NCBI GenBank assembly: GCA_030614785.1
Contig: JAUWTJ010000013.1
Coordinates: 1 to 62,508, forward strand
Direction: 5' to 3'
Source of the DNA: Alphaproteobacteria bacterium
Lineage (GTDB): Bacteria; Pseudomonadota; Alphaproteobacteria; M2410
Length of the DNA stretch: 62,508 nt
Shown here: piece by piece, positions 4,002-56,000 of the stretch
How positions within the stretch are numbered: position 1 is the first letter of the stretch
Layout of the letters: each line of letters starts with the position of its first letter
Translations under genes and position numbers: made by a program
The notes under the pieces: model-generated
What the model was told of the DNA's origin: nothing
Seen by the model: the letters and a program-made list of their open reading frames with translations, nothing else
Database searches by the model: none

Positions 4002-5024
4002 ATGAAGGTCAAACAACAGCTCTTTGAGCGCTACTCCGGCAACCCCATTTTGAAACCGGAACAATGGGCGCACACGGTAAATGCTGTGTTCAATGCCGGT
4101 GCGGTGAAGTTCAATGATGAGACGCTCCTGTTGGTCCGCGTTGAGGACCGCAGCGGTATCTCTCATCTTGGCATCGCGCGCAGCAAGGACGGCCTGACCG
4201 ACTGGCGCATTGAGCCCGAGCCGAGCTTTCAAATGGATCCAGGGTGCTACGAGGAAGCCTGGGGTATCGAGGATCCGCGGATCACCCAGGTTGGGGACGA
4301 ATATCTGATCGTCTATACCGGATTTTCCCGGGGCGGTCCGCTCGTCCGCCTGGTTTCGACCCACGACTTTCGGACCTTTCATCGTCGCGGCACTTTGATG
4401 CCCCCGGATGATAAGGACGCGGCCCTGTTTCCTGAAAAGTTTGATGGTCGGTGGGCACTGCTTCACCGCCCGGCGCCGCAATCCGATGCCGCGGGCAGGG
4501 TTGGATCACATATCTGGCTTTCCTGGAGCCCGGACCTTCGTCACTGGGGCGACCATTCCATTGTTGTCCATGCGCGCCGGGGTGGCTGGTGGGACGCAGA
4601 CACGATTGGTCTTGGTCCGCCGCCGCTGCTTACTGACTATGGCTGGCTCATTCTCTATCATGGCGTGCGCATGACGGTTTCAGGCGCAATCTATCGCCTT
4701 GGCCTGGCCATGCTCGACCGGGAGGATCCAGGTCGCTTGTTGGTCCGTGGCAATGAATGGATCTTTGGCCCGGAGGCTGCATACGAGCGCGTTGGCGACG
4801 TGCCGGACGTTGTGTTCCCCTGCGGCTGGGTGCTGGACGATGATGGTCAAACCATTCGACTCTACTATGGCGCCGCCGATACGACCGTCTGTGTGGCGAC
4901 GGGAAACCTCAACCAGCTCATTGACTACCTCTACTGCCATTGCATCTGCGGCGAGGTCCACGTGCCAGGAGACTGTTGTCCGATTGCGGCTCAGGAACCG
5001 GTTGAAATGACAGGCCTGCCCTGA
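4002..5024 (+). CDS. GH130 family glycoside phosphorylase (short form)
   Basis: A 340-residue five-bladed beta-propeller enzyme of family GH130, whose characterised members phosphorolyse beta-1,4- or beta-1,2-mannosides to mannose-1-phosphate. The hallmark GIEDPR occurs near residues 88-93; its Asp91 corresponds to the family's proton donor. Repeated blade motifs (FNAGAVKF, SKDGLTDW, WSPDLRHWG) are clear. The length is normal for the short subfamily. The ATG is preceded by a good GAGGGG ribosome site. It has no signal peptide, so it acts in the cytoplasm. It lies tail-to-tail with the cupin/glycosyltransferase operon and near a second GH130. The exact linkage specificity cannot be read. Confidence 0.9.
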   Translation: MKVKQQLFERYSGNPILKPEQWAHTVNAVFNAGAVKFNDETLLLVRVEDRSGISHLGIARSKDGLTDWRIEPEPSFQMDPGCYEEAWGIEDPRITQVGDEYLIVYTGFSRGGPLVRLVSTHDFRTFHRRGTLMPPDDKDAALFPEKFDGRWALLHRPAPQSDAAGRVGSHIWLSWSPDLRHWGDHSIVVHARRGGWWDADTIGLGPPPLLTDYGWLILYHGVRMTVSGAIYRLGLAMLDREDPGRLLVRGNEWIFGPEAAYERVGDVPDVVFPCGWVLDDDGQTIRLYYGAADTTVCVATGNLNQLIDYLYCHCICGEVHVPGDCCPIAAQEPVEMTGLP

Positions 5025-10179: not shown

Positions 10180-10245
10180 CTACAGGGTGAGAACAGCTGC
10201 TTTGGCCACTTTTCTGGCCGCTGCAGCAAGCTGGTGGATTGTCTG

Positions 10246-11085
10246 ATGATAAACACTCTGCGAACCTGGAATTTTGACGATAATGCGAGCCCGGATGCCT
10301 TCGGGCTCGACCGGACCCCGGACCAGTCGCGCGGCGAGCGCATATGTCAACCGGAAGGGGCGAGCGCGAAGCAAGCGAAGAAATATCCTTCCAAGCATGT
10401 GCTGTTCAACGAAGGCGATGATGCCGACACGGTCTATGAGGTCGTCGATGGCATGGTGATGCTGTACACGATCTCGGAAAATGGTCGCCGGACCGTTATC
10501 GGCTTCTTGCAGAAAGGCGATTACTTCGGATTTGTCATGCGCGATGTTCATTCTTATTTTGCGCAAACCGTTGGAGTGTGTGTCGTTCGATCAATTTCGC
10601 GAGCAAGATTGTGGCGCGAGATCCGGGAGCATCACAGGGCAGCTGAAAAGTTTTTGTCCCTCGAAGGCAATGCGCTGGAGAATGCACGCAAACACATGGT
10701 CCTCTTGACCCGCAAAACACCGATTGAACGGGTCTCAATGTTTCTTCTGGAAATGGCGGCGCGCCACGGGGGCGATGGAGATTATGCGCGCGGCGTTCGT
10801 CTGCCGATGACCAGGACGGATATTGCGGATTATCTCGGGCTTGTTGTTGAAACGGTTTGCCGATGTCTCACAAGCCTGAAAGACCTTGGTATGATTAGCA
10901 TGGAAACAAGGGGGCAGATTGAAATCCTCGATGGAGAGCGGCTCCTGCGGTATGCGCTGGGCGAGGAGAGGAGCGACCCGGCGGACGAAATTTTGATCAA
11001 CGAAGGAATGGTCATGACCGGCATTTCTTTTGAGGCCTGGGCCGATTTGGTCGAGGAATCACTTCCGAGCCTTATGGCGTATTAG
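10246..11085 (+). CDS. Crp/FNR-family transcriptional regulator (FixK-like)
   Basis: A protein of about 279 residues. An N-terminal tail leads into a cyclic-nucleotide-binding-type beta-roll (VLFNEGDDADTVYEVVDG, then GRRTVIGFLQKGDYFG). A long dimer helix follows, then a winged helix-turn-helix (MTRTDIADYLGLVVETVCRCLTSLKDLG). The recognition helix reads E-T-V-C-R, keeping the Glu and Arg that FNR/FixK proteins use to read TTGAT/ATCAA half-sites, with Cys where FNR has Ser. The N-terminal four-cysteine cluster of FNR is missing, so it is more like FixK and may not sense oxygen directly. The start is uncertain; a TTG/ATG choice exists at 10234-10246. A C-terminal tail of about 45 residues is unusual. 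Confidence 0.9.
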   Translation: MINTLRTWNFDDNASPDAFGLDRTPDQSRGERICQPEGASAKQAKKYPSKHVLFNEGDDADTVYEVVDGMVMLYTISENGRRTVIGFLQKGDYFGFVMRDVHSYFAQTVGVCVVRSISRARLWREIREHHRAAEKFLSLEGNALENARKHMVLLTRKTPIERVSMFLLEMAARHGGDGDYARGVRLPMTRTDIADYLGLVVETVCRCLTSLKDLGMISMETRGQIEILDGERLLRYALGEERSDPADEILINEGMVMTGISFEAWADLVEESLPSLMAY

Positions 11086-18978: not shown

Positions 18979-20856
18979 ATGTGTGGTATCGCCGGGTGGG
19001 TAACCTCGAACGATATGTCGGAACCTTCCCTGGTCTTGCAACGGATGATTAACTCAATTGAGCACCGTGGGCCGGACGGGCAGGGACAGGCTTTTGCCAG
19101 GACCAGAGACGGCGCATACTCGGTTGCGCTTGGTCACTGCCGCTTGTCCATTATCGATCTGGATTTTGGCGCCCAACCCATGGTCATTGATCAAGGTCAG
19201 TTTACCATCAGCTTTAATGGCGAAATTTACAATTTCAGAGAGTTACGGCAAGAGCTCTCGGGTTTGGGTCATCAGTTTACCACCAACTCTGATACTGAAG
19301 TCATTCTGGCAGCCTACAAACAATATGGAAACAAGTGCGTTGAGAAGTTTCGGGGCATGTTTGCCTTTGCCATTTGGGATGCGGTTAAAGAGGAACTGTT
19401 TCTGGCTAGAGACCAGTTCGGCAAGAAGAACATCTACCTTTATGATGACGGCCACAGATTGTTCTTTGCCTCTGAGGCGAAAGCAATTCTTGAAGCCCCG
19501 ATTGAGCGCCCCCGACTGGATCAAAACTCGGTAAGCGACTATCTTGTTCTGCGCTATGTGCCTGGGCCTCATACGCTCTTCGATACGATTTCGAAATTAC
19601 CGCCGGGCTCTCATTTGACATGGCGGCGCGGGAAAAAGGAAGTTGTTCGATATTTTGTTCCCGAAGACATTGCCGCTCCAGCCAGGCTTGCAGCATCCGC
19701 TGATACACCTGCGGCATTCCTGGACGCTCTTGATGAGGCTGTTCAACTGAGAATGATCAGTGACGTGCCCATTGGCGCCTTTCTTTCCGGAGGGCTCGAT
19801 TCTTCGGCGGTCGTTGCGCTGATGTCGCGCCATAGCACGGCTCCCGTGAAAACGTTCTCCGTCGGGTTTTCCGAAGATACCTATAGCGAAGCAGGATATG
19901 CGCGGCAGGTGGCAAAGCTTTTCAAGACCGATCATCGCGAGCTGGTGATCTCTGCTGATGATATTATGACCTGTCTGCCTTCGCTTGTTCGCTTCAGGGA
20001 TGCGCCTGTTTCGGAATCCTCCGATATCCCGATTTTCCTGTTGGCCAGGGCCGCTGCCGAGGATGTGAAAGTTGTCCTCACCGGGGAAGGTGCAGATGAA
20101 ATATTGGCGGGTTATCCCAAACATCGATTTGAAAAATGGGCGGCTCTGTATGGGCGCTGCGTCCCCGGCGGGGTGCATCAAGGGTTGGTTTCGCCGCTGA
20201 TCGATGCTTTGCCCTACAGCTTTCGTCGGGTGAAAATTGCGGCGCGGGCCTTTGCTGAGCCCGACTTTGCCAGGAGAACCGATCAGTGGTTCGGAGCCCT
20301 GACCGATCAAACGCGACGGTCGCTTTTGCGGTTTGAACGTTACAGGGAAACAAATCTCTATCCCTACAGCGCCGATAGCAAGCAAAGTGCCGTGCGTCGT
20401 TTACTGTTTTTCGATCAAACATCGTGGCTGCCCGACAATCTACTGGAGCGCGGGGACCGCATGACCATGGCGGCCTCACTGGAGGCGCGCATGCCTTTTC
20501 TGGACACCGAACTTGCCTCATTTGCATCACGGATGCCGGAAGAATGGCGGTTGCGCGGCAAGGTTCAAAAGAGAGTCCTCAGAGCTGCCATGAGTGATAT
20601 TCTTCCCGGCAATATCCTGTCGCGTCCGAAGGTTGGTTTCCGTGTGCCCATCAATGAGTGGTTCCGGGGCCCGATGAAAGATTACATTTATGACCATCTG
20701 ACCTCTGCTGCGTCACAAACCGCAGTGCTTTATGATCGCCAGGTTCTGGAAAATATACTCGGTGAACACGTATCGGGACGGCAAAATCATGAGAAGGCTA
20801 TCTGGTCGCTCCTCAATCTGGAGCTCTTTCAACAAGAGTATCATTTGAGCCTATGA
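18979..20856 (+). CDS. Asparagine synthase (glutamine-hydrolysing)-type amidotransferase
   Basis: A 625-residue class II glutamine amidotransferase. Cys2 after the initiator Met (MCGIAGWV) is the glutaminase nucleophile, with EHRGPDGQG and FNGEIYNFRELR nearby. The synthase domain has the ATP-pyrophosphatase loop SGGLDSSAV at residues 270-278 and VVLTGEGADEILAGYPKHR. Homologues in polysaccharide loci amidate uronic acids rather than make asparagine, and the AlgD-like dehydrogenase nearby would supply a carboxyl group. It opens a forward operon with the flippase (ATGA overlap). Housekeeping asparagine synthesis remains possible. Confidence 0.93.
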   Translation: MCGIAGWVTSNDMSEPSLVLQRMINSIEHRGPDGQGQAFARTRDGAYSVALGHCRLSIIDLDFGAQPMVIDQGQFTISFNGEIYNFRELRQELSGLGHQFTTNSDTEVILAAYKQYGNKCVEKFRGMFAFAIWDAVKEELFLARDQFGKKNIYLYDDGHRLFFASEAKAILEAPIERPRLDQNSVSDYLVLRYVPGPHTLFDTISKLPPGSHLTWRRGKKEVVRYFVPEDIAAPARLAASADTPAAFLDALDEAVQLRMISDVPIGAFLSGGLDSSAVVALMSRHSTAPVKTFSVGFSEDTYSEAGYARQVAKLFKTDHRELVISADDIMTCLPSLVRFRDAPVSESSDIPIFLLARAAAEDVKVVLTGEGADEILAGYPKHRFEKWAALYGRCVPGGVHQGLVSPLIDALPYSFRRVKIAARAFAEPDFARRTDQWFGALTDQTRRSLLRFERYRETNLYPYSADSKQSAVRRLLFFDQTSWLPDNLLERGDRMTMAASLEARMPFLDTELASFASRMPEEWRLRGKVQKRVLRAAMSDILPGNILSRPKVGFRVPINEWFRGPMKDYIYDHLTSAASQTAVLYDRQVLENILGEHVSGRQNHEKAIWSLLNLELFQQEYHLSL

Positions 20857-25554: not shown

Positions 25555-27621
25555 CTACACCTGAAATATCATGCCGGCGGTTCGCTCAGCGCCATTTTGT
25601 GTTTCGTGGTTAATCTCAAGGGCCAGTCGGCAGGTTGGTTCTTTTGATCCAAATGTCCCGGAGAACTGTGGTGGGCGCTCGTCCAGGGCGCTTTCGATTT
25701 GAAGGGGTGTTTGCTTGTCTGTTGTTGAAACGCTCAACATTTTGCCCATCGGGTGACATACATCAATGACGCCGTCCGTGTCGGTTACGGTTAGATCTGG
25801 ATGCAACAAAAGCCCGGCATGCGCCGACGGCAGGTTCGCGGTGTTGCCGATCAGCCGATCGAAAATTTCGATTTTGCCTTCACAGTGGAAACGGATTTCG
25901 CGTTGATGCTGGACCCTGAAGTCGTCCTCGTAGCCATCATGAGAAACCGCAATTGACCAAGTGCCCTCTTCCTGTTTGAGCGGGGTGACAATCTGGCACT
26001 TTGCGCGGCATCCCCAATTAAAGGCTCCGGTTATTTTGCTGCTATTGGCCTCGCCGATGGCCACAGTGTTGTGCGCTTTGGTGCTGCGGAAGTAATCTCG
26101 ACAGGCACCGCCTGAATGATAGAGGTAGGTCCCGGCATCGACAAAGACGGGTTGGTCATCAATATGCAGCCAGATGGAGAGGGCATCGGCGTGTCCGTGG
26201 GCGGCAATGGACAAATGTCCCAAAGGTCCGTGATCAAGGACTAGCAGGACCTTCTTGCTTCGCATCGTTTTTCGAAAAACCGTATAGCCGCCCGAGGCGA
26301 AGGTTCGCGCCCCTTCGAGAAAGTGTTCATTGGGCGCGGCCTGGCCAAACAACAGGTCTCGAATGTGCGGGCGAACCACCGGCGGGGCGATGGCGGGATC
26401 GTCGAGGAAGGCTGAAAGACTTGCCAGAACAGACGATACATAATTCCTTCCTTTGTCTTGCGGGGAAGCAAAAACGCTACATTCATCATCGTCGCCAATT
26501 GCAGGGACGTGGCCGCCTGTGTCCATGAGCCAGCGAAGGTGATGCCCGGCTTTGCCGAGTTGATCGCGAACGTGCACCCCAAAAGGCGCGCCGGATTGTT
26601 CGCCGATCCAAAGGCAGAGCAAATACCACTCCAGTGTAAGACTTGTGTAGCTCGGTGACTGTTCAGCGCCGACACCGTCGACATGAATCTGCTGCCCGAC
26701 CTGTTCACTGAGAACCTGTTGGCCATATTGGGCGTAGTGCGACGCCTCTTCGAGCTCCGGCCAGCAAGTGCCCAGGGCATAGAGGGCGGCGGCCTCGGCA
26801 ATGAGATGGTTATTGGCTGAAGAAAACCTTGAAGGATAACGCATTAGCCAAAACCCGTGTGCTTTGAGGCAGGCAGAGAGCCTGGAGCGTCGGTCGCTGG
26901 AAATCAGTTTCGGGTCGATGAAGCTCAAGACCGTCAAGATGCTGATGGTGCGCAGGGCGAGTTCAATTCCTGACACCCAGTTTATGCCCTGGAACGGCGG
27001 GTTTGACTCTATCCATTCATCCAGAACACCGAGGCAGAATTTGGCAGGCTCGGGATCGTTTGTCAGGGCGGAAAGGGCGGCGACGGGTTGAAGGAACTGT
27101 AGTCTGTTAAGCTCCCAGACATACTTTACATCGCCCATCTGAGTGTTGTTGCGATAGGGGATGCGGAAGCAATAGATATCGGAGGGCCAACATTTGCCGG
27201 AGACCGGATCCACATGCCAGATGTCTGCACCTGCATCATCTGGCCATTTCACATCAAAAAACTCAAATGATCTGGATTTTGCCATTGTCCAGGTTTGTCG
27301 CCACGTGTCCTGAAGGCCCTGTGGCTGTTCAGGTTTTTCCGCAGTGATCGGTAGACGTGGTAACTTGATGTTTCCGCAGTCGAAGTCCGCCCAGTCGTAG
27401 GAACGCTGCTGTGAGCCAAGCCGTTTCGTTTGTTCTACGAGGCGGTGTAAAACTTCGGGGCCACCCATGGAGCGAAGTCGATTTAAATGCCAGTTCAATT
27501 GTTTCACCTGAGTCTCGATCGATCTGTATAAACTACTTGTCGCGCGAAATCGTTCAGAAGCGTGATGCCCTGAAAACGGCAAGGAAGAATCAAATGATAT
27601 TTCTGTGCGATTAATAGGCAT
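25555..27621 (-). CDS. Heparinase II/III family polysaccharide lyase
   Basis: About 688 residues. The N-terminal half is an alpha/alpha toroid (GINWVSGIELALRTISIL, then SSANNHLIAEAAALYALG, typical of Hepar_II_III_N). The C-terminal half is a beta-sandwich domain with SIAAHGHADALSIWLHIDDQPVFVDAGTYLYH, the conserved heparinase His/Tyr region. The family cleaves uronic-acid-containing chains by beta-elimination. Such genes are frequent in Wzx/Wzy exopolysaccharide loci and may trim or edit the polymer. No clear signal peptide is visible at the chosen ATG. The start overlaps the sugar transferase stop by 11 bases. The first 45 residues look dispensable. Confidence 0.9.
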   Translation of the reverse strand: MPINRTEISFDSSLPFSGHHASERFRATSSLYRSIETQVKQLNWHLNRLRSMGGPEVLHRLVEQTKRLGSQQRSYDWADFDCGNIKLPRLPITAEKPEQPQGLQDTWRQTWTMAKSRSFEFFDVKWPDDAGADIWHVDPVSGKCWPSDIYCFRIPYRNNTQMGDVKYVWELNRLQFLQPVAALSALTNDPEPAKFCLGVLDEWIESNPPFQGINWVSGIELALRTISILTVLSFIDPKLISSDRRSRLSACLKAHGFWLMRYPSRFSSANNHLIAEAAALYALGTCWPELEEASHYAQYGQQVLSEQVGQQIHVDGVGAEQSPSYTSLTLEWYLLCLWIGEQSGAPFGVHVRDQLGKAGHHLRWLMDTGGHVPAIGDDDECSVFASPQDKGRNYVSSVLASLSAFLDDPAIAPPVVRPHIRDLLFGQAAPNEHFLEGARTFASGGYTVFRKTMRSKKVLLVLDHGPLGHLSIAAHGHADALSIWLHIDDQPVFVDAGTYLYHSGGACRDYFRSTKAHNTVAIGEANSSKITGAFNWGCRAKCQIVTPLKQEEGTWSIAVSHDGYEDDFRVQHQREIRFHCEGKIEIFDRLIGNTANLPSAHAGLLLHPDLTVTDTDGVIDVCHPMGKMLSVSTTDKQTPLQIESALDERPPQFSGTFGSKEPTCRLALEINHETQNGAERTAGMIFQV

Positions 27622-29161
27622 TACTCTGAGTCCACACAACAAACGGAGTCTGGATCAATATCCTTAGATCAAGGATCAAGGACCAGTTGACGATATAGTA
27701 AAGGTCATGTTCGACACGCTGACGCATTCGATCTGTACCCTGGGTTTCGCCGCGCAAGCCATTTACTTGAGCCCACCCGGTAATGCCCGGTTTAACATTG
27801 TGTCGCTGCGCATACCGGTCAACGGATCCAGTGTGTTCGCGGTTGTGAGCTGTAGCATGCGGACGAGGTCCGACAAGGGACATGCTCCCGGTCAACACGT
27901 TTAGCAACTGAGGCAACTCGTCCAAACTGGTTTTTCGCAAGAAATTTCCGACGCGTGTGACTCGAGCGTCGTTTCTTGTGGCCTGCGGCACCGCGTCTTT
28001 GCTTTGATCGCCATGCACCATCGTTCGAAATTTGAGGACACTGAAAATATCATGATTGAAACCATGACGATCCTGCTTGAAAATAACGGGTCCTCTTGAG
28101 TCCAGTTTTATAGCCAGTATAATCAAGAGGAAAACCGGCGTCAAAACCGCCAGCAGGGCCGCCGCAAGAGTTTTGTCCATTGTACTTTTTGCGATGCCGC
28201 GCCAGCCATCAATTGAGCGGGATTTTACTGCCAGCATTGGTATCCCTGAGATATCGGTCATTGTTGCACCTACCTTCTCAAGGGGCAGCCACTCCGGGCA
28301 GAGCTTTATTGGAACCGGAACAACAGACAATCGGTCCATGACCTCTTCGATCCGTTCCGCCGCACTCCATGGCAAGGCAATTACAATTTCATCAACCCTT
28401 GTCGTTCCGATCAGGGTGAGCAAATCGTCCAGTGATCCTGTTTCGTCAAATGAACGCCGATCCAGGCCCTGCTCAAACCTGTCATCGAACAGCCCAATAA
28501 CGGATATGTCTGAACTCAGTGGAGCGCATTTTTCGAGGAGCTGGCTTGCAAGGGGCGTTGCCCCGACAATTACTAGTCTGGATTTCAGGACGCCGCCGCC
28601 TTTTAACAGACCCTGTGCCAGGAAATGGAGAGCAGTGCGTACAATGATTAATCCTGACACGCCCAACACGAGCGTGCTGAGAATGGCGCCGCGAGAAAAC
28701 TCGTCAGAGTTCTTGAACAGGAAGGCCGCGGTCAGGAAAATGGAGGAAGCGATGAGACAGGACCGCCCAAGTCTGCGTATCTGAAAGTCAGCTGATAGCA
28801 GCTTGTCGAATGCATAACTGCCGGAATTAGAACCAATCATGACAATGATTATGCCGGCTAATGCTCCTAACGCCAGTCCCCCGGCGAGGTCGCCATGAAC
28901 CTGAAGGAACAGCAGATGGTACAGGTATTCTCCGCCAGCTCCGGCCAAAGTGCAGACGAAAAAATCACTCAGCCTGACGGCATCTGAGAAAACCCTGCGC
29001 GGATCGAGGGTTGCAGCGCCCTGTCGACGGTTCACCTGATTCAGAAACCCGCGACTACTCTTGTTTCTGGTACCATTTGCAGATGCTGAATCAGGTTTCC
29101 ATGCCCCCATGGTCTCCGCTTCTTCAGCTAAACGGCCACCCCCAAATCTAACCACACCCAT
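27611..29161 (-). CDS. Priming glycosyltransferase (polyprenyl glycosylphosphotransferase)
   Basis: A 516-residue membrane enzyme that transfers a sugar-1-phosphate to undecaprenyl phosphate, the first step of repeat-unit assembly. It has N-terminal hydrophobic segments (residues about 70-190), a central Rossmann-like CoA-binding-type region (SRLVIVGATPLASQLLEKC), another membrane segment near 335-355, and the C-terminal sugar-transferase core. The core has GPVIFKQDRHGFNHDIFSVLKFRTM, DELPQLLNVLTGSMSLVGPRPHA and GITGWAQVNG. A shorter start at 29110 is possible. It follows the Wza gene in the same direction after 130 bases. Confidence 0.93.
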   Translation of the reverse strand: MGVVRFGGGRLAEEAETMGAWKPDSASANGTRNKSSRGFLNQVNRRQGAATLDPRRVFSDAVRLSDFFVCTLAGAGGEYLYHLLFLQVHGDLAGGLALGALAGIIIVMIGSNSGSYAFDKLLSADFQIRRLGRSCLIASSIFLTAAFLFKNSDEFSRGAILSTLVLGVSGLIIVRTALHFLAQGLLKGGGVLKSRLVIVGATPLASQLLEKCAPLSSDISVIGLFDDRFEQGLDRRSFDETGSLDDLLTLIGTTRVDEIVIALPWSAAERIEEVMDRLSVVPVPIKLCPEWLPLEKVGATMTDISGIPMLAVKSRSIDGWRGIAKSTMDKTLAAALLAVLTPVFLLIILAIKLDSRGPVIFKQDRHGFNHDIFSVLKFRTMVHGDQSKDAVPQATRNDARVTRVGNFLRKTSLDELPQLLNVLTGSMSLVGPRPHATAHNREHTGSVDRYAQRHNVKPGITGWAQVNGLRGETQGTDRMRQRVEHDLYYIVNWSLILDLRILIQTPFVVWTQSNAY

Positions 29162-29291: not shown

Positions 29292-29879
29292 CTAAAAGTA
29301 TCGCTCGGGGACCTCAATCACATCTTCCGGGAAAATCGAAACATCATCGCCAACGCGTACGGTAATTCTGGCACCGGTACGGGCTCGTGTGACGTGAATT
29401 TTTTTCTGATTGGCGCGATAGGTGAACCCCTCGGCCATTGCGATTGCCTTTATGAGGTTCATTCCGGCAACGTAGGGATATTCACCTGACTTATTCACTT
29501 CGCCGACAACATAGAACGGCCGAAAACTCACAACTTCCGCATTCACGCGAGGTTTCTTCAAATAGCCATCATTCAGCTTTTTCTCAACGACAGCCTCGAA
29601 TGCTCGAAGGGAGAGCCCCCGTGCCAAAACCTGTCCAACCAACGGCAGCGATACGTCCCCCGAGGCATCTACAGTAAACTCACCTGAAAGATCTTCTTCG
29701 CCAAAAACAATAACCCTGATTTGATCGCCGGCACCCAATTTGTAGGTATCTTCAATTCCAGGAATAGTTTTGCCCGTCCTGTTATTTGCCGCATATGCTT
29801 CGGAATGGCACGCGATCCCAACCAGGGAAACCGCAACCATCAAGAGCAAGCTGCATCTTGCCAGTCCCAATTTGTACAT
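29292..29879 (-). CDS. Polysaccharide export protein, Wza family (short)
   Basis: A 195-residue exported protein with an N-terminal signal peptide (a hydrophobic stretch to about residue 30, ending near CHSEAYA). A polysaccharide-export domain follows (YKLGAGDQIRVIVFGEEDLSGEFTVDASGDVSLPLVGQV), then one SLBB domain (RPFYVVGEVNKSGEYPYVAGMNLIKAI). It would form the outer-membrane/periplasmic exit channel with the Wzc kinase. It is much shorter than Wza (about 375 residues), lacking the second SLBB and the C-terminal transmembrane helix; such short forms are common with separate outer-membrane barrel partners, as at 30812. A sigma-54-like promoter lies about 107-121 bases upstream. Confidence 0.92.
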   Translation of the reverse strand: MYKLGLARCSLLLMVAVSLVGIACHSEAYAANNRTGKTIPGIEDTYKLGAGDQIRVIVFGEEDLSGEFTVDASGDVSLPLVGQVLARGLSLRAFEAVVEKKLNDGYLKKPRVNAEVVSFRPFYVVGEVNKSGEYPYVAGMNLIKAIAMAEGFTYRANQKKIHVTRARTGARITVRVGDDVSIFPEDVIEVPERYF

Positions 29880-29985
29880 AACTACTCGACCTCTTACGCC
29901 AAATTCCCCGGGCTCAACACGAACGGACCTTTACGATGGAGCAAATTGCCGGTTAAACTTGCAAAGTTCCATAATGGCAGAGCTT

Positions 29986-30000
29986 TCAAATTGCGTGCCA
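29986..30000 (-). promoter_or_regulatory. Sigma-54-like (-24/-12) promoter toward the Wza gene
   Basis: Read on the minus strand, TGGCACGCAATTTGA matches TGGCACG-N4-TTGC with correct spacing. The -12 dinucleotide is GA instead of GC, so it is a near match and may be weaker. Confidence 0.45.
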
Positions 30001-30057
30001 AACCTCAGATATCTTCAGACGGAAGAAAACCCTCAATTCAAGGGCTAAAAAGGTGTG

Positions 30058-30073
30058 TGGCACAAGGATTGCT
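30058..30073 (+). promoter_or_regulatory. Sigma-54-like (-24/-12) promoter toward the secreted-protein/barrel/Wzc genes
   Basis: TGGCACAAGGATTGCT has GG and GC separated by exactly 10 bases, the sigma-54 geometry. It points right and lies 153 bases upstream of the 30226 start. RpoN-dependent control with an enhancer-binding protein is known for some exosortase-type exopolysaccharide systems. No such activator is encoded in the window. Confidence 0.6.
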
Positions 30074-30225
30074 AGCATAAGGGTTAACGCTAGTTATCCG
30101 TTGCGCCTGGCAGGCCCTGCTTGTAAATTTGAACAGGGCGATTCGCAGATGCCATGTCCTGGATACTATCGAGAGCCTGACGCAGGAGCTTTTTCCATTG
30201 CTTCGGCCAAATTACGGAGGATTTC

Positions 30226-30708
30226 ATGGGACGACAGTTCAAGATCGGAGTTTGTGTGGCAGGAAGCATTCTCTTCGGCCCACCCGTATTTTTGGGAGCC
30301 CTGGCTCAAGATGATTCGCAGAGACCTCGGGAGCGGGTTCTGACCGAGGCGGTAATATTTGCGGAGGCATTGCGGTCGAATGAGTCGATTAGCGGGATGG
30401 AATTCAAGACACTGGTTTGTTCGGCGATGCAAGACGCGGTCATGGGGGGCATGTCGCCTGCGGTAGCCGTTAATATCGGCGGCATGTCTGACTGTGGGGG
30501 CTCATTTGTCAACGGATCTTCTGGTGATGTTGATGTATCTGCTGGCAGCGTTGACGAATCTGCTGCTTATGATGATGAGTCTTCCGGTGATGTTGGTGGA
30601 TCCGGTGGTGATGTTGGTGGGTCTGGTGGGCACGCTCCGGTAACACCAATAGTGGTGCCGAGCACAACAGCAGGCTCGAACGACAGTACGTCTCCAACAA
30701 GTAATTAG
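30226..30708 (+). CDS. Small secreted Gly/Ser/Asp-rich repeat protein
   Basis: A 160-residue protein of unknown family. It begins with a signal peptide (about residues 1-27, ending near GALAQ). A short helical part with two cysteines follows (residues 40-90). After residue 95 comes an acidic low-complexity tail built of imperfect units around S-G-D-V, S-G-S-V and G-G-S-G, then a Thr/Ser/Pro-rich end. A GGAGGA ribosome site precedes the ATG. It is the first gene after a sigma-54-like promoter and is followed by the outer-membrane barrel and Wzc genes. It may be a matrix or surface component; no sorting signal such as PEP-CTERM is visible. Confidence 0.7.
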   Translation: MGRQFKIGVCVAGSILFGPPVFLGALAQDDSQRPRERVLTEAVIFAEALRSNESISGMEFKTLVCSAMQDAVMGGMSPAVAVNIGGMSDCGGSFVNGSSGDVDVSAGSVDESAAYDDESSGDVGGSGGDVGGSGGHAPVTPIVVPSTTAGSNDSTSPTSN

Positions 30709-30811: not shown

Positions 30812-32080
30812 ATGAAAACGATCGGTGTTAAGGCTGTACTAGGCGCGGCGTTACTGGCCTTTGGCGCATTTAAGGCCAATGCCGAGGAAGAACAAGGCGA
30901 CACAGGAGTGCTGGACAGATCTCGACCTGAGTATGACGCGCTTGGCGTGCCAGCGGGCGGATTTACATTATTTCCAAGTCTGAGTGTGGCGATCGGTTCG
31001 GACGACAATTTGTTTGCAACAGAAGGTTTCGAAGTAAGTGACACTTTCGGAAGTCTCCATCCCGAGATGATCCTGCAGTCGAATTGGAGCCGTCATCAAC
31101 TGGTGTTTGATGCCTATGCTCGATCAACGTACTACGACGAAAACCCGGATGAAGACCAGGTTGAATGGGGAGCGGGCTTGAAGGGGCGGATTGACGCCTC
31201 AAGATCAAGTATTCTTAGTGCTGATGGTCGTTTTGATAATCTGGCTGAGGCCCGGGGCTCCATTGATGCGGTGGGTTTGGCCGCGGAACCAGTCCTCTAT
31301 GATATGGCCACTGGATCACTTAGTTTTAGCCAACGTCTAAATCGGTTCAGTTTCAGTCTCGGGGGGCGTCTTACAACATTTGACTATGATGATCTGGCCA
31401 GTCTCGGCGGTGGAATGATCGATCAGGACTTTAGAGACAGGAGTGTCGCTGTTACCATTGCTACGGCCAAATATGAGTTTTCTGCCGGAAGCAATGTCGT
31501 CCTGCAGGCTGAGATTAATAGTCGAGATTACGATCTCGAACCGGGTGATGCCGGTTTTGTTCCGGGTCTGAATTTTGATCGAGATTCAACGGGGTATAAT
31601 GTGAAAGGTGGCCTCGAATTTGGAGTTACCAATCTTGTAAATGGCAAGATCATGATCGGGTATCTCGAGCAAGATTATGATGACGTCGCCTTTACAGCTG
31701 TTGAAGGCGCTTCTTTTTCCGCTGAACTCAAATGGAGTATATCGGGCCTGACTGATTTGCGGTTTGAAGGTGGGCGTAGTGCCGAAGACACAACATCAGC
31801 ACTCGCCGGGGGACGTTTGGCTACGGCGTATGGGGCAGCAATCGATCACGAGTTTCGCAGAAATGTAATCGCTACGGTCGAAGCCAGTCACACTAACTAT
31901 GACTTTGAAGGCAGTAGTCGTGACGATGATATCGCTCGCGCCGGTGCCGGTGTCAGATATTTGGTAAACCGCAGAATGTCTTTGGGCCTCGGGTATGAAT
32001 ACTCTGACAGGAGTTCGAACGTGGTTGGCGTGGATCATGCAAGACATGTCGTGCAATTGAATTACCGGGTACAGCTCTGA
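30812..32080 (+). CDS. Outer-membrane beta-barrel protein of the exopolysaccharide locus
   Basis: A 422-residue protein with a signal peptide (about residues 1-25, ending FKANAEE). It has many alternating amphipathic strands ending in aromatic residues and finishes with VVQLNYRVQL, a typical barrel C-terminus. It resembles the BBP2-type barrels that accompany short Wza proteins in exopolysaccharide clusters and may complete the export pore. An AAGGAG ribosome site precedes the ATG. Family assignment is from architecture and neighbourhood rather than a single motif. Confidence 0.82.
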   Translation: MKTIGVKAVLGAALLAFGAFKANAEEEQGDTGVLDRSRPEYDALGVPAGGFTLFPSLSVAIGSDDNLFATEGFEVSDTFGSLHPEMILQSNWSRHQLVFDAYARSTYYDENPDEDQVEWGAGLKGRIDASRSSILSADGRFDNLAEARGSIDAVGLAAEPVLYDMATGSLSFSQRLNRFSFSLGGRLTTFDYDDLASLGGGMIDQDFRDRSVAVTIATAKYEFSAGSNVVLQAEINSRDYDLEPGDAGFVPGLNFDRDSTGYNVKGGLEFGVTNLVNGKIMIGYLEQDYDDVAFTAVEGASFSAELKWSISGLTDLRFEGGRSAEDTTSALAGGRLATAYGAAIDHEFRRNVIATVEASHTNYDFEGSSRDDDIARAGAGVRYLVNRRMSLGLGYEYSDRSSNVVGVDHARHVVQLNYRVQL

Positions 32081-32154
32081 CTTCTGTTCCACTCTGGGAC
32101 AGAGAATAGTCGAGCGCTGGTGACCAAATCAGGGTGCGACTACAGTGGTGTGTG

Positions 32155-34440
32155 ATGCGGAATGAGCCAGCCAACGTCAGAGGGAGCCCGGTTTATGGCG
32201 GACGTGAATACGGGACGGGCGCCGAGATAAACCTACGAGAATTGGCAATGGTTATCCGGCGCCGGTTGAATGTCATTCTCGGTGTCATCCTGGTTGTGAC
32301 CGGTACGATAGTGCTGGTGACCCTCCAATTGCCGAAAAAATACTCGTCCACTGCGGAACTCCTGATAAAAGCACCTGAGCAGACTCTGGTTAATCTTCAG
32401 GCTTTTGATACTTCTACTTCTTCCAACAGTGCCTCGATCGATAGTCAGATCAGCATACTGCGTTCGCGAGACCTCGCTGGAAAGGTTGTTGATCAACTTG
32501 ACTTGATGAATGACCCTGAATTCAATTCCGCCCTCGAATCCAATGCAGGCACAGGCGTTTGGTTGTGGGTGAAAACCTCAATAGATGAGATAGCGGGAAC
32601 GACCTGGTTTTCTGAACCGCGGCAGGAGGCAGCGAGAGAAGACAAGGTTGAATATCAGACAGCCAGTCAACGGAGGGTCCTCGTTGTTGACAGTCTTTTG
32701 AGCAAGATCAGCGTGCGCCGTCAGGAACTGAGTTATGTGATTTTGGTGACAGCAATTACCAAATCGCCAGAGAAATCAGCGATGTTGGCTAACACTTTTA
32801 CTGATGCCTATCTGGAACATCAGATGAACTGGCGTCTCGACACGATACGCCAGACAGATAAATGGCTGGGTACCCAATTGGATGATTTGGGTGGAAAGCT
32901 GATTGAATCGGAAAGGGCTGTAGAAGACTTCCGCGCTGAAAATGGCCTTCTGAATTCGTCCGGAGTAACGCTGAATGAGCAGCAGCGATCAGATGCCAAT
33001 GCGCAACTTATCGCTGCCAACGCCAATCTGGCGGAGTTGGAAGCGCGTGATCGGCGCGTTAAACAGTTGGTTCGCGCTGGCGAAGAGGTCGGTATCGTTG
33101 CACAGATCATGTCTTCCAATGTCATCATTGAAATGAAGCAGCAGCAGACCGGGCTCACCAGAAAATTGGCAGAGATGTCAAATCGATATGGTGACAAACA
33201 TCCTGTGATGATTAATGCTCGGGCAGAGTTGGCGGATCTGGAAATGCGGATCAAGTCTGAAGTTGATCTTATTATTGACAGCCTCGAAGGTGAGGTTTTG
33301 GTTGCTCGTAGTCGTGTCAAATCTATTGAGAGGAGCCTGGCCACACTCCAACATGGAGGCGCGGAAGATGAACAATCGCGCGTGGTTTTGAATGGCCTCA
33401 TCCGGGAAGCTGACGCAAACAGACTGGTATTTGAAAACCTGCTGCAGAGTTCAAAAAAATCGACGATACTCTCTGGAACGGATTCAATTGAAGCGAACAC
33501 AAGAAAGATATCTCCCGCAAGCGTTCCACGTGACCCATCGTTTCCGAAGCCTAAACTTATCGGTAGCCTCGCCCTGGTTATATCCGCCTTCCTTGGCATT
33601 GGCCTGGCCTTTGTAATTGAGTCATTTGACAATGGCTTCAAGACGCCCCTGCAGCTGGAAGGCGCCCTGGGCATTCCCAATCTTGCAGCCATCCCTGAGG
33701 TTCAGAAGGGTGAGCGCACGATCAGGTTCCGAACCCGCACTCTGTGGGATTACCTCTTGCTGCGCCCAATGTCGGTATTCAGCGAAGGACTTCGCACGAT
33801 GCGATCTGCCCTGGAAATGTCGGATCTGGACAATCCACCGAAGCTGATTGCCGTAACGTCCAGCGTTCCAGACGAAGGCAAAACAACAACAACTTATTGC
33901 ATGGCGGTTCAGGCTGCTGATGCCGGATTGAAGACTCTTATTATAGACGCGGATTTTCGACGAGGCGCCCTGTCCAGACAATTGAAGAAGGGTAAAAAGA
34001 AGGGGCTGATTGACGTTGTCGCCGGGGCAGCCAGATTGAAGGACGTTATTTATACTGTCGACAAGAGGTCCGGATTACATTTTATACCAAGTGGTTCGAG
34101 ATCGAGAATTGCTAACGACATAATTAACTCTCCCCGGTTTGGCAGCTTGTTGAAAGCTCTTAAAGCGGAATATGATCTCGTTCTGTTTGACACTGCGCCT
34201 GTCTTGCTGGTTATAGACACGCCGATCCTAGCTGCGCAGGTCGATAAGACCATTCTGCTGGTGGCCTGGGACAAAACCCCGCAGAATGTTGTAGAAAGTG
34301 CCTTCAAAAGGCTCAGAGATTTCAACGTCGATGTTGCTGGCACTGCGCTTAGCTTACTGGATGTTCGGCAGCAAAACCGTTATTACGGGGATAGCTACTA
34401 CGGATATGGCAAAGAGTATGATGGCTACTATACCAATTAG
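32155..34440 (+). CDS. Wzc-like polysaccharide co-polymerase and tyrosine autokinase
   Basis: About 761 residues. The N-terminal Wzz domain starts with a membrane helix (VILGVILVVTGTIVLVTL), followed by long periplasmic coiled-coil (residues about 210-440) and a second membrane helix near 465-490. The cytoplasmic BY-kinase has the P-loop SSVPDEGKTTTT near residue 573, Walker A' LIIDADFRRG near 595 and Walker B LVLFDTAPVL. The C-terminal tail is a tyrosine cluster with eight Tyr in the last 20 residues, the autophosphorylation site. It controls chain length and export. The start is unsure; a GTG lies 21 bases upstream, and neither has a clear ribosome site. Confidence 0.94.
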   Translation: MRNEPANVRGSPVYGGREYGTGAEINLRELAMVIRRRLNVILGVILVVTGTIVLVTLQLPKKYSSTAELLIKAPEQTLVNLQAFDTSTSSNSASIDSQISILRSRDLAGKVVDQLDLMNDPEFNSALESNAGTGVWLWVKTSIDEIAGTTWFSEPRQEAAREDKVEYQTASQRRVLVVDSLLSKISVRRQELSYVILVTAITKSPEKSAMLANTFTDAYLEHQMNWRLDTIRQTDKWLGTQLDDLGGKLIESERAVEDFRAENGLLNSSGVTLNEQQRSDANAQLIAANANLAELEARDRRVKQLVRAGEEVGIVAQIMSSNVIIEMKQQQTGLTRKLAEMSNRYGDKHPVMINARAELADLEMRIKSEVDLIIDSLEGEVLVARSRVKSIERSLATLQHGGAEDEQSRVVLNGLIREADANRLVFENLLQSSKKSTILSGTDSIEANTRKISPASVPRDPSFPKPKLIGSLALVISAFLGIGLAFVIESFDNGFKTPLQLEGALGIPNLAAIPEVQKGERTIRFRTRTLWDYLLLRPMSVFSEGLRTMRSALEMSDLDNPPKLIAVTSSVPDEGKTTTTYCMAVQAADAGLKTLIIDADFRRGALSRQLKKGKKKGLIDVVAGAARLKDVIYTVDKRSGLHFIPSGSRSRIANDIINSPRFGSLLKALKAEYDLVLFDTAPVLLVIDTPILAAQVDKTILLVAWDKTPQNVVESAFKRLRDFNVDVAGTALSLLDVRQQNRYYGDSYYGYGKEYDGYYTN

Positions 34441-34528: not shown

Positions 34529-35254
34529 GTGTTATTCTTGGGACGAACGGTTCTCATTTTAGCGGCGCTGGCTCTGGTTACAGGCAGTTGGCCTCGTTTC
34601 CTGGCGGGGCTCGGCGAGATGGGACCAGAATCTATCTACCGGGACAATAAGCAGGAAAGAAGTGTCGCCGGGAATGCCTATGAGCGCGCACTCTTATCAC
34701 TAAGGCGATCAAAAGACTTAAATCCGGCTTCTTCAATCTACTACGCCCAGTCTGCGGATGTTTCTTTGAGAAATGCAATGCGCCTTGCGGAAGACGGAAA
34801 ATTCAAGTCATCGAAAATTGAATTCGACAATAGTCGCGTTGATGCCAAAAGGGGGTTGCTTCGCGGCCCGTCGGATCCTTATGCATGGTTCGTGCTTGCC
34901 TACTCAGAACAGGCAATCGATGGCCCTTCCGAGGCAGCCCTTTCAGCCTTAAACACTTCGTTTGATGTTGGTGAGACAGAAGGAAAACTCCTGATACCCC
35001 GTATCTCCTGGTGTTTCGGCTATTGGTCGGCACTGCCTGAGAATTTGAGGAGAAGAGCAAAGGGGCAAATACAATTGGCGTTGAAGAACGATAGCTTGAG
35101 GCGCGACCTTGCGCAGTATGCAGCATCTCTCCCGTCGACTGCTCAAGAAGAGTTATTGGGGATAGTAGAGGAGGTGGGTTCCGGGGGGCCGGATAATCTT
35201 CGCAAGTTCCGATATTGGCTGCGTATTTCCAAAAGCGATCGCGGCACTCGATAG
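34529..35254 (+). CDS. Hypothetical exported protein of the exopolysaccharide locus
   Basis: 241 residues starting at a GTG with GAGGAAA upstream. The N-terminus is a hydrophobic anchor or signal (LFLGRTVLILAALALVTGSW). The rest is helical with TPR-like spacing (YERALLSLRRSKDLNPASSIYYAQSA, then DPYAWFVLAYSEQAIDG). It has no recognised catalytic motif. It follows Wzc by 88 bases and ends flush against the convergent O-antigen-ligase-like gene. That arrangement suggests a periplasmic accessory of polymerisation or export. The function is unknown. Confidence 0.75.
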   Translation: MLFLGRTVLILAALALVTGSWPRFLAGLGEMGPESIYRDNKQERSVAGNAYERALLSLRRSKDLNPASSIYYAQSADVSLRNAMRLAEDGKFKSSKIEFDNSRVDAKRGLLRGPSDPYAWFVLAYSEQAIDGPSEAALSALNTSFDVGETEGKLLIPRISWCFGYWSALPENLRRRAKGQIQLALKNDSLRRDLAQYAASLPSTAQEELLGIVEEVGSGGPDNLRKFRYWLRISKSDRGTR

Positions 35255-55064: not shown

Positions 55065-55583
55065 TCAATTGCCCGGTTCGTTTCCCGATTTTGGTAGCCG
55101 GATCATTTTTTCCACGCCCTTCGCTTCAAAGCGAACAAAGTCCTCGCCGATCTCCCTGGCAACCCAGCCGCCAACATCTTCGCCCTCGGCAAGCCGCAAC
55201 GTTGTTTTCGTTGCTGGATCAACAAGTAGTGCAAGACGCTGGGCCTCTCCAATAACAATACCCTGCAAAAGATACTTTCCTATGAACTCTTCCTTACGAT
55301 CCCCGGTTTGCTGGTCCTGATTTTCGGATGGGCGTCGCGAGGGCGAGAAGAGCGGTCGATCATCTATTGCATCGAATGTCTCCAGTCCCGGCGGTGTCTT
55401 TTCCCGGGGTTCTACGGCACTATCAGTCGATATCTCGTCACTTGAAAATAGAGCGGTTTCCACATGAGGCGGGAGGGTATGTGATCGAAACTGAATCGAG
55501 GCCCACAGGCACGCGGCGAGAACAACACTCAGGCCCATCATGATCTGTTGCGGGCGACCGATCCTGCCCCAATATCCCCACAT
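55065..55583 (-). CDS. Type II secretion GspC-like inner-membrane protein (short)
   Basis: 172 residues from the ATG at 55583. There is one membrane helix near residues 14-32 (QIMMGLSVVLAACLWASIQF) and a Pro/Glu-rich linker. The HR-type domain (YLLQGIVIGEAQRLALLVDPATKTTLRLAEGEDVGGWVAREIGEDFVRFE) normally contacts the secretin N0 domain. The PDZ or coiled-coil tail of classical GspC is missing; the protein ends soon after HR. It is transcribed just before gspD. The alternative of a GspN/PulC-like truncated protein fits the same role. Confidence 0.82.
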   Translation of the reverse strand: MWGYWGRIGRPQQIMMGLSVVLAACLWASIQFRSHTLPPHVETALFSSDEISTDSAVEPREKTPPGLETFDAIDDRPLFSPSRRPSENQDQQTGDRKEEFIGKYLLQGIVIGEAQRLALLVDPATKTTLRLAEGEDVGGWVAREIGEDFVRFEAKGVEKMIRLPKSGNEPGN

Positions 55584-56000
55584 ATGATCGTTCTTTCTGT
55601 TGCACGGGAGAGGTAGCGCTATCTTGGCCCGGCAGTTGCGCAATGACAATCATACTCTAAAAAGGTCGAATATTCAAGGGCTTACGACCTCCAGCCTGGG
55701 GCGTGACGAGCGCATTGGAGGCTTGGGGGTCTAGTGACTCCAACTGGTCAGCAATGTTTTATGGTAAACGGACTGATTGGTGCGGGGGTTTAGATTTGCG
55801 TATGTCGATGCCGCAGCGGGTGCATATCTGAGGAATTAGTTTCATTGCGGAGGAAGTTTCCGATGGCGCGGGCCGCATCCTGAATGACGAGTCGAGTATA
55901 TTGGGTCGCGTGCGTCGGATTGCCCCATTTCCGTTTTTTATGGCAAGTTTTGTGCTAGATTGTGATCGAAGCAGGAACGAACAGTCAAGTTGTCTCGATG
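55584..56000. other. Divergent intergenic region between gspC-like and gspE
   Basis: About 417 bases. No convincing gene was found. It must hold promoters for both arms of the secretion locus, but no clear -35/-10, sigma-54 or FNR-type site was recognised. The GspE frame is open back to a GTG at 55962. Confidence 0.45.

Follow-up and report, generated by a model that had tools for sequence, protein, structure and literature searches.

A putative RpoN promoter facing one arm of a divergent exopolysaccharide export locus in an alphaproteobacterium

In the DNA analyzed in this work (hereafter the window, 62,508 nucleotides of contig JAUWTJ010000013.1 of assembly GCA_030614785.1, from an alphaproteobacterium), two groups of polysaccharide-export genes point away from each other, and the region separating them embeds an exact -24/-12 element facing right and an imperfect one facing left (Table 1). 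The reading that we consider moderately probable is that the right-hand element truly functions as an RpoN (sigma-54) promoter depending on an activator outside the PrsR-box system, that the left-hand one is a chance near-match, and that wza is read from elsewhere. According to this scheme, RpoN would use the right-hand element, the activator would act there, the resulting transcript would cover the genes for the secreted protein, the barrel and Wzc as one operon, and wza would be transcribed from a different promoter.

Table 1. Features of the divergent intergenic region and of the two flanking gene groups (window coordinates).
Feature	Position	Strand	Remarks
Sigma-54 promoter-like -24/-12 element TGGCACAAGGATTGC	30058-30072	+	Exact consensus TGGCAC-N5-TTGC with TTGCT extension
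Weak look-alike TGGCACGCAATTTGA	30000-29986	-	One mismatch: A for C of the -12 GC (TTGA)
Divergent intergenic region	29880-30225	.	346 bp, between oppositely directed polysaccharide-export gene groups
Imperfect direct repeat CAAATTGCCGGTTAAAC / CAAATTGCGTGCCAAAC	29942-29958 and 29987-30003	+	13/17 identical, 45 bp apart
WcaJ-type undecaprenyl-phosphate glucose phosphotransferase	27611-29161	-
Short Wza-type polysaccharide export protein (wza)	29292-29879	-	Poly_export plus SLBB
Small secreted-looking protein, first gene of the rightward arm	30226-30708	+	Signal-peptide-like start, Gly/Ser-rich end
Outer-membrane beta-barrel BBP2_2 (EpsL-like)	30812-32080	+
Wzc-type chain-length determinant (Wzz) and tyrosine autokinase	32134-34440	+
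VpsP-like protein	34529-35254	+	Weak match

The original prediction had placed a TGGCAC-N5-TTGC sequence with exact -24/-12 geometry in front of the rightward arm, and the element is indeed there with no mismatch: GG at -24, GC at -12 and the correct spacing. It is the sole exact copy in the window, where dinucleotide shuffles lead one to expect 0.20, and an exact match arose in 0.05% of 2000 Markov shuffles of the intergenic region. The site is intergenic and faces a start codon at about 154 nt, with a predicted transcription start at approximately position 30084 (+); this leader is the longest of the exact-site class, whose other members have leaders of 54-101 nt. Using a scoring matrix built from seven PrsR-box promoters with the window left out (leave-one-out scores 11.2-20.7 bits), the right-hand site obtained 13.5 bits and ranked second among about 125,000 window positions. 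The top score, 15.05 bits, belongs to TAGCACAAAACTTGC at 55957-55943 (-), which adjoins a gene for a T2SSE-type ATPase at 55962 (+) and faces away from it, toward an open reading frame at 55065-55649 (-).

The same pattern was followed throughout the genome (3.86 Mb in 148 contigs). Exact TGGCAC-N5-TTGC occurs 19 times, against five occurrences of a reversed control pattern, which corresponds to a roughly four-fold enrichment; according to a simple open-reading-frame heuristic, nine of the 19 sites, compared with one of the five controls, are intergenic and face a gene, about one such hit per pattern being expected by chance. The first count rises to ten of 19 if one includes a nirB-like gene, the frame of which reaches across the site solely from an upstream GTG. 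The class comprises the promoters of two PEP-CTERM genes and that of a flagellin gene (named by eye from its translation). It also includes a divergent exact pair on another contig (C3:4670-4684 on the minus strand and 4911-4925 on the plus strand; loci L035 and L036), lying before nitrite-transport-like and nitrite-reductase-like genes, also named by eye; this pair illustrates how a divergent sigma-54 arrangement of the kind originally proposed would look if real. Since the class is enriched and mostly promoter-placed, and since the matrix score falls within the promoter range, the right-hand element, taken alone, is quite likely a real sigma-54 promoter.

The leftward near match TGGCACG-N4-TTGA is likewise present where it had been proposed, 57 bp from the right-hand motif and about 107 nt from the wza start codon. 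Matches with at most one mismatch number 11 in the window against 5.7 expected, so that a single hit of this type means little by itself, and one appeared in the intergenic region in 3.65% of 2000 Markov shuffles. The GC characteristic of a -12 element is missing from the site. Moreover, TGGCAC-N5-TTGA exists in 16 copies genome-wide, 15 of which lie within reading frames, the window copy being the only intergenic one; its matrix score of 9.5 bits, the 23rd highest in the window, is lower than that of any of the seven PrsR-box promoters. For these reasons (the missing -12 GC, the location of nearly all copies of the variant in reading frames and the low score), the left-hand site is probably a chance near-match and not a promoter. 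For this genome, an intergenic -24/-12 match carries information when it is exact, whereas the TTGA variant does not. Of the divergent pair originally envisaged, the right member is supported, belonging to an enriched and mostly promoter-placed class, and the left one is not. The second copy of the imperfect direct repeat overlaps the left look-alike, and the repeat may represent a candidate activator site for the right-hand promoter.

The machinery required for sigma-54 transcription is encoded in the genome. We found one copy of rpoN and nine genes whose activator domain clearly exceeds the cut-off (one gene is truncated at a contig end), as anticipated by the suggestion that an NtrC-type activator be sought elsewhere in the genome. 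The enhancer-binding protein genes comprise ntrC, ntrX, a flbD-like gene, prsR and one gene each on contigs C98, C125, C135, C69 and C11. None of the nine lies on the window contig, and no enhancer-binding protein was recognized among the window proteins examined, which include a FixK/FNR-like regulator (10234-11085). In the intergenic region, no consensus site for NtrC, LuxO, TyrR, FlbD, CtrA, FNR or IHF was better than those in shuffles. The comparison with seven other sigma-54 sites for a common activator motif gave no segment clearly above shuffles, the best one being shared at 14 of 16 positions with the flagellin upstream region (11-13 in six shuffles). A PrsR-like enhancer-binding protein scoring under the PrsR cut-off (C98:9376-11286, L185) was discarded as a candidate, since it appears to act locally: next to it is an exact -24/-12 site facing the gene of a small secreted protein, and larger genes follow on that strand.

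A more specific candidate was offered by the PEP-CTERM system. XrtA (exosortase A), PrsK, PrsR and PrsT are all encoded in one locus on contig C85, the PrsR protein scoring 643.7 bits where the cut-off is 502.6. According to Haft et al. (2006), in Proteobacteria a 17-nt box ending in TTTACA lies 32-92 nt ahead of the sigma-54 element upstream of PEP-CTERM genes (PMC1569441). The corresponding box in this genome, TGTCAGGATTCTTTACA, precedes the -24/-12 element by 50, 61-62 or 73 nt in ten promoters, located on contigs C5, C6, C9, C14, C20, C97, C106, C119, C128 and C143 (L067-L076). The whole window contains no match within three mismatches of the plain consensus, and the best match in the intergenic region has six; the absence of the box speaks against PrsR as activator of the exopolysaccharide (EPS) locus. 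Two asparagine-synthase-like amidotransferases of the XrtA type exist in the genome, one in the window (18979-20856) and one on contig C85 (26279-28204; L030:2280-4205), and the TIGR03108 cut-off is passed by the latter and missed by the former; the window proteins tested included no exosortase.

The three spacing classes of the PrsR box hint that PrsR and RNA polymerase are helically phased, with modest support from other genomes. There, 14 of 23 box-to-TGG spacings, several of which are probably chance matches, fall within 1 nt of the 50, 61-62 and 73 classes, where 7.4 would be expected (P = 0.004); the same comparison at a 2-nt tolerance gave P = 0.06, and testing the other genomes by themselves for periodicity gave P = 0.07. 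A scan with TTAACCAT around the PrsR promoters took in two loci only and was not used as evidence.

To place the locus in a comparative frame, a named genome collection was searched, which yielded 61 loci, the best being about 40% identical in the barrel. In the nearest relatives at this level of identity (Parvibaculum and others), wza, the small secreted protein, the barrel and wzc are co-directional. The taxonomic order to which the present genome belongs comprises only four genomes, the other three having no strong wza match. With respect to loci L097, L102, L105-L108, L113, L129 and L133, wza is inverted here relative to the secreted protein and the barrel. Between wza and the barrel, the relatives showed no operon-facing element even when one mismatch was allowed. 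Because the relatives are co-directional and have no facing near-consensus site, the divergent arrangement appears to be a local feature of this lineage. The small protein of the window gave no match in Pfam or NCBIfam. A small secreted protein, several times with an end rich in Gly or in acidic residues, recurs directly upstream of the BBP2_2 barrel in alphaproteobacterial EPS loci (L097:7434-7949, L099:3955-4401, L105:888-1325 and L107:3282-3782). The leftward arm, besides the Wza-type exporter and WcaJ, includes a heparinase-like protein.

The evidence listed above must be weighed against different explanations. It might be argued that both elements arose by chance and that housekeeping-type or CtrA-type promoters transcribe the locus, RpoN having no role. 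This scenario, which we regard as rather unlikely, draws on the circumstance that chance alone predicts roughly one gene-facing hit in intergenic DNA, that no activator site emerged from the intergenic region and that the relatives harbor no conserved element; it is also in keeping with a weak sigma-70-like hit at 29946-29975 (+) and with TTAAC motifs, which occur at 30083-30088 and, in several relatives, also ahead of the gene for the secreted protein. However, neither the sigma-70 hit nor the TTAAC motifs are clearly above chance, whereas the exact sites are enriched about four-fold and mostly placed as promoters, and the shuffle probability of an exact match in this intergenic region is 0.0005. 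The points that weigh against the right-hand promoter are the absence of an activator or IHF site above chance, the lack of a near-consensus element at the syntenic place in relatives (although the nearest of these share only about 40% identity in the barrel), the long leader, the higher matrix score of the site at 55957 (-) and the single gene-facing hit to be expected by chance.

If, on the other hand, two divergent RpoN promoters with common activator sites coordinated both export arms, the opposite orientation of motifs separated by so short a distance would be readily explained; the combination of an exact match and an opposite-strand match with at most one mismatch occurred in none of 2000 shuffles, and the pair on contig C3 shows that divergent exact sites do exist in this genome. 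Nevertheless, the degenerate -12 of the left element, typical of copies inside reading frames, the failure to find a common activator site and the co-directionality of the same genes in the relatives render this possibility very unlikely. The coordinated RpoN control of the two arms put forward in the original prediction is therefore not supported, with neither a PrsR box nor any tested consensus site above shuffle level in the intergenic region, no activator gene on the contig and no conserved -24/-12 site at the syntenic place in the relatives; a single rightward RpoN promoter with another activator is plausible. Still less credible, in our opinion, is a membership of the EPS locus in the PrsK/PrsR regulon by way of a PrsR box that is degenerate or far away, with expression alongside the PEP-CTERM proteins. 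The complete XrtA/PrsK/PrsR/PrsT set and the ten PrsR-box -24/-12 promoters would favor such a membership, as would a TTTACG 128 nt ahead of the right-hand site and a TTTACA 127 nt ahead of the left-hand one; yet these TTTAC words stand about 122 nt away, whereas the ten clear promoters have their box at 50-73 nt, the best intergenic box has as many as six mismatches, and the EPS biosynthesis genes of Aquincola seem to lie outside RpoN1 control (PMC9850573).

The preferred reading, that is, one rightward RpoN promoter with a non-PrsR-box activator, can be compared with known systems. In Aquincola, the PEP-CTERM gene pepA is under RpoN1 (PMC9850573). The window shares with the PEP-CTERM/PrsK-PrsR/sigma-54 promoters (PMC1569441, PMC9850573) a -24/-12 element preceding a secreted-protein gene, in a genome possessing XrtA, PrsK, PrsR and PrsT; it differs from them in that it has no PrsR box, its first gene encodes no recognized PEP-CTERM protein and the EPS cluster is apart from the XrtA locus. 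In Burkholderia cenocepacia, NtrC (PMC5491218) and BerB (PMC9684580) affect exopolysaccharide, BerB acting via the regulator gene berA and not directly on the polysaccharide genes (PMC9684580). The likeness consists of exopolysaccharide genes under a sigma-54 activator (BerB/NtrC there, predicted here), whereas in our case no activator gene lies near the locus and no activator site was recognized. More generally, an association of sigma-54 promoters with exopolysaccharide genes extends across genomes, and it is well established that RpoN governs surface and matrix genes (PMC3162934); that association is broad and cross-genomic, whereas here it concerns one site in one genome, without conservation.

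As to its biological meaning, the EPS locus is a case of ordinary bacterial gene control. We tentatively advance, as a possibility that we ourselves hold to be doubtful, that an enhancer-binding protein other than PrsR, together with one sigma-54 promoter, might drive a second exopolysaccharide system (its secreted protein, export barrel and kinase) alongside the PrsR/PEP-CTERM regulon; if so, RpoN would link two separate matrix systems via different activators. If the preferred reading is correct, RpoN would control a further operon for exopolysaccharide export, in an alphaproteobacterium also having a PrsR/PEP-CTERM regulon, and some nine candidates would be available in the search for its activator.
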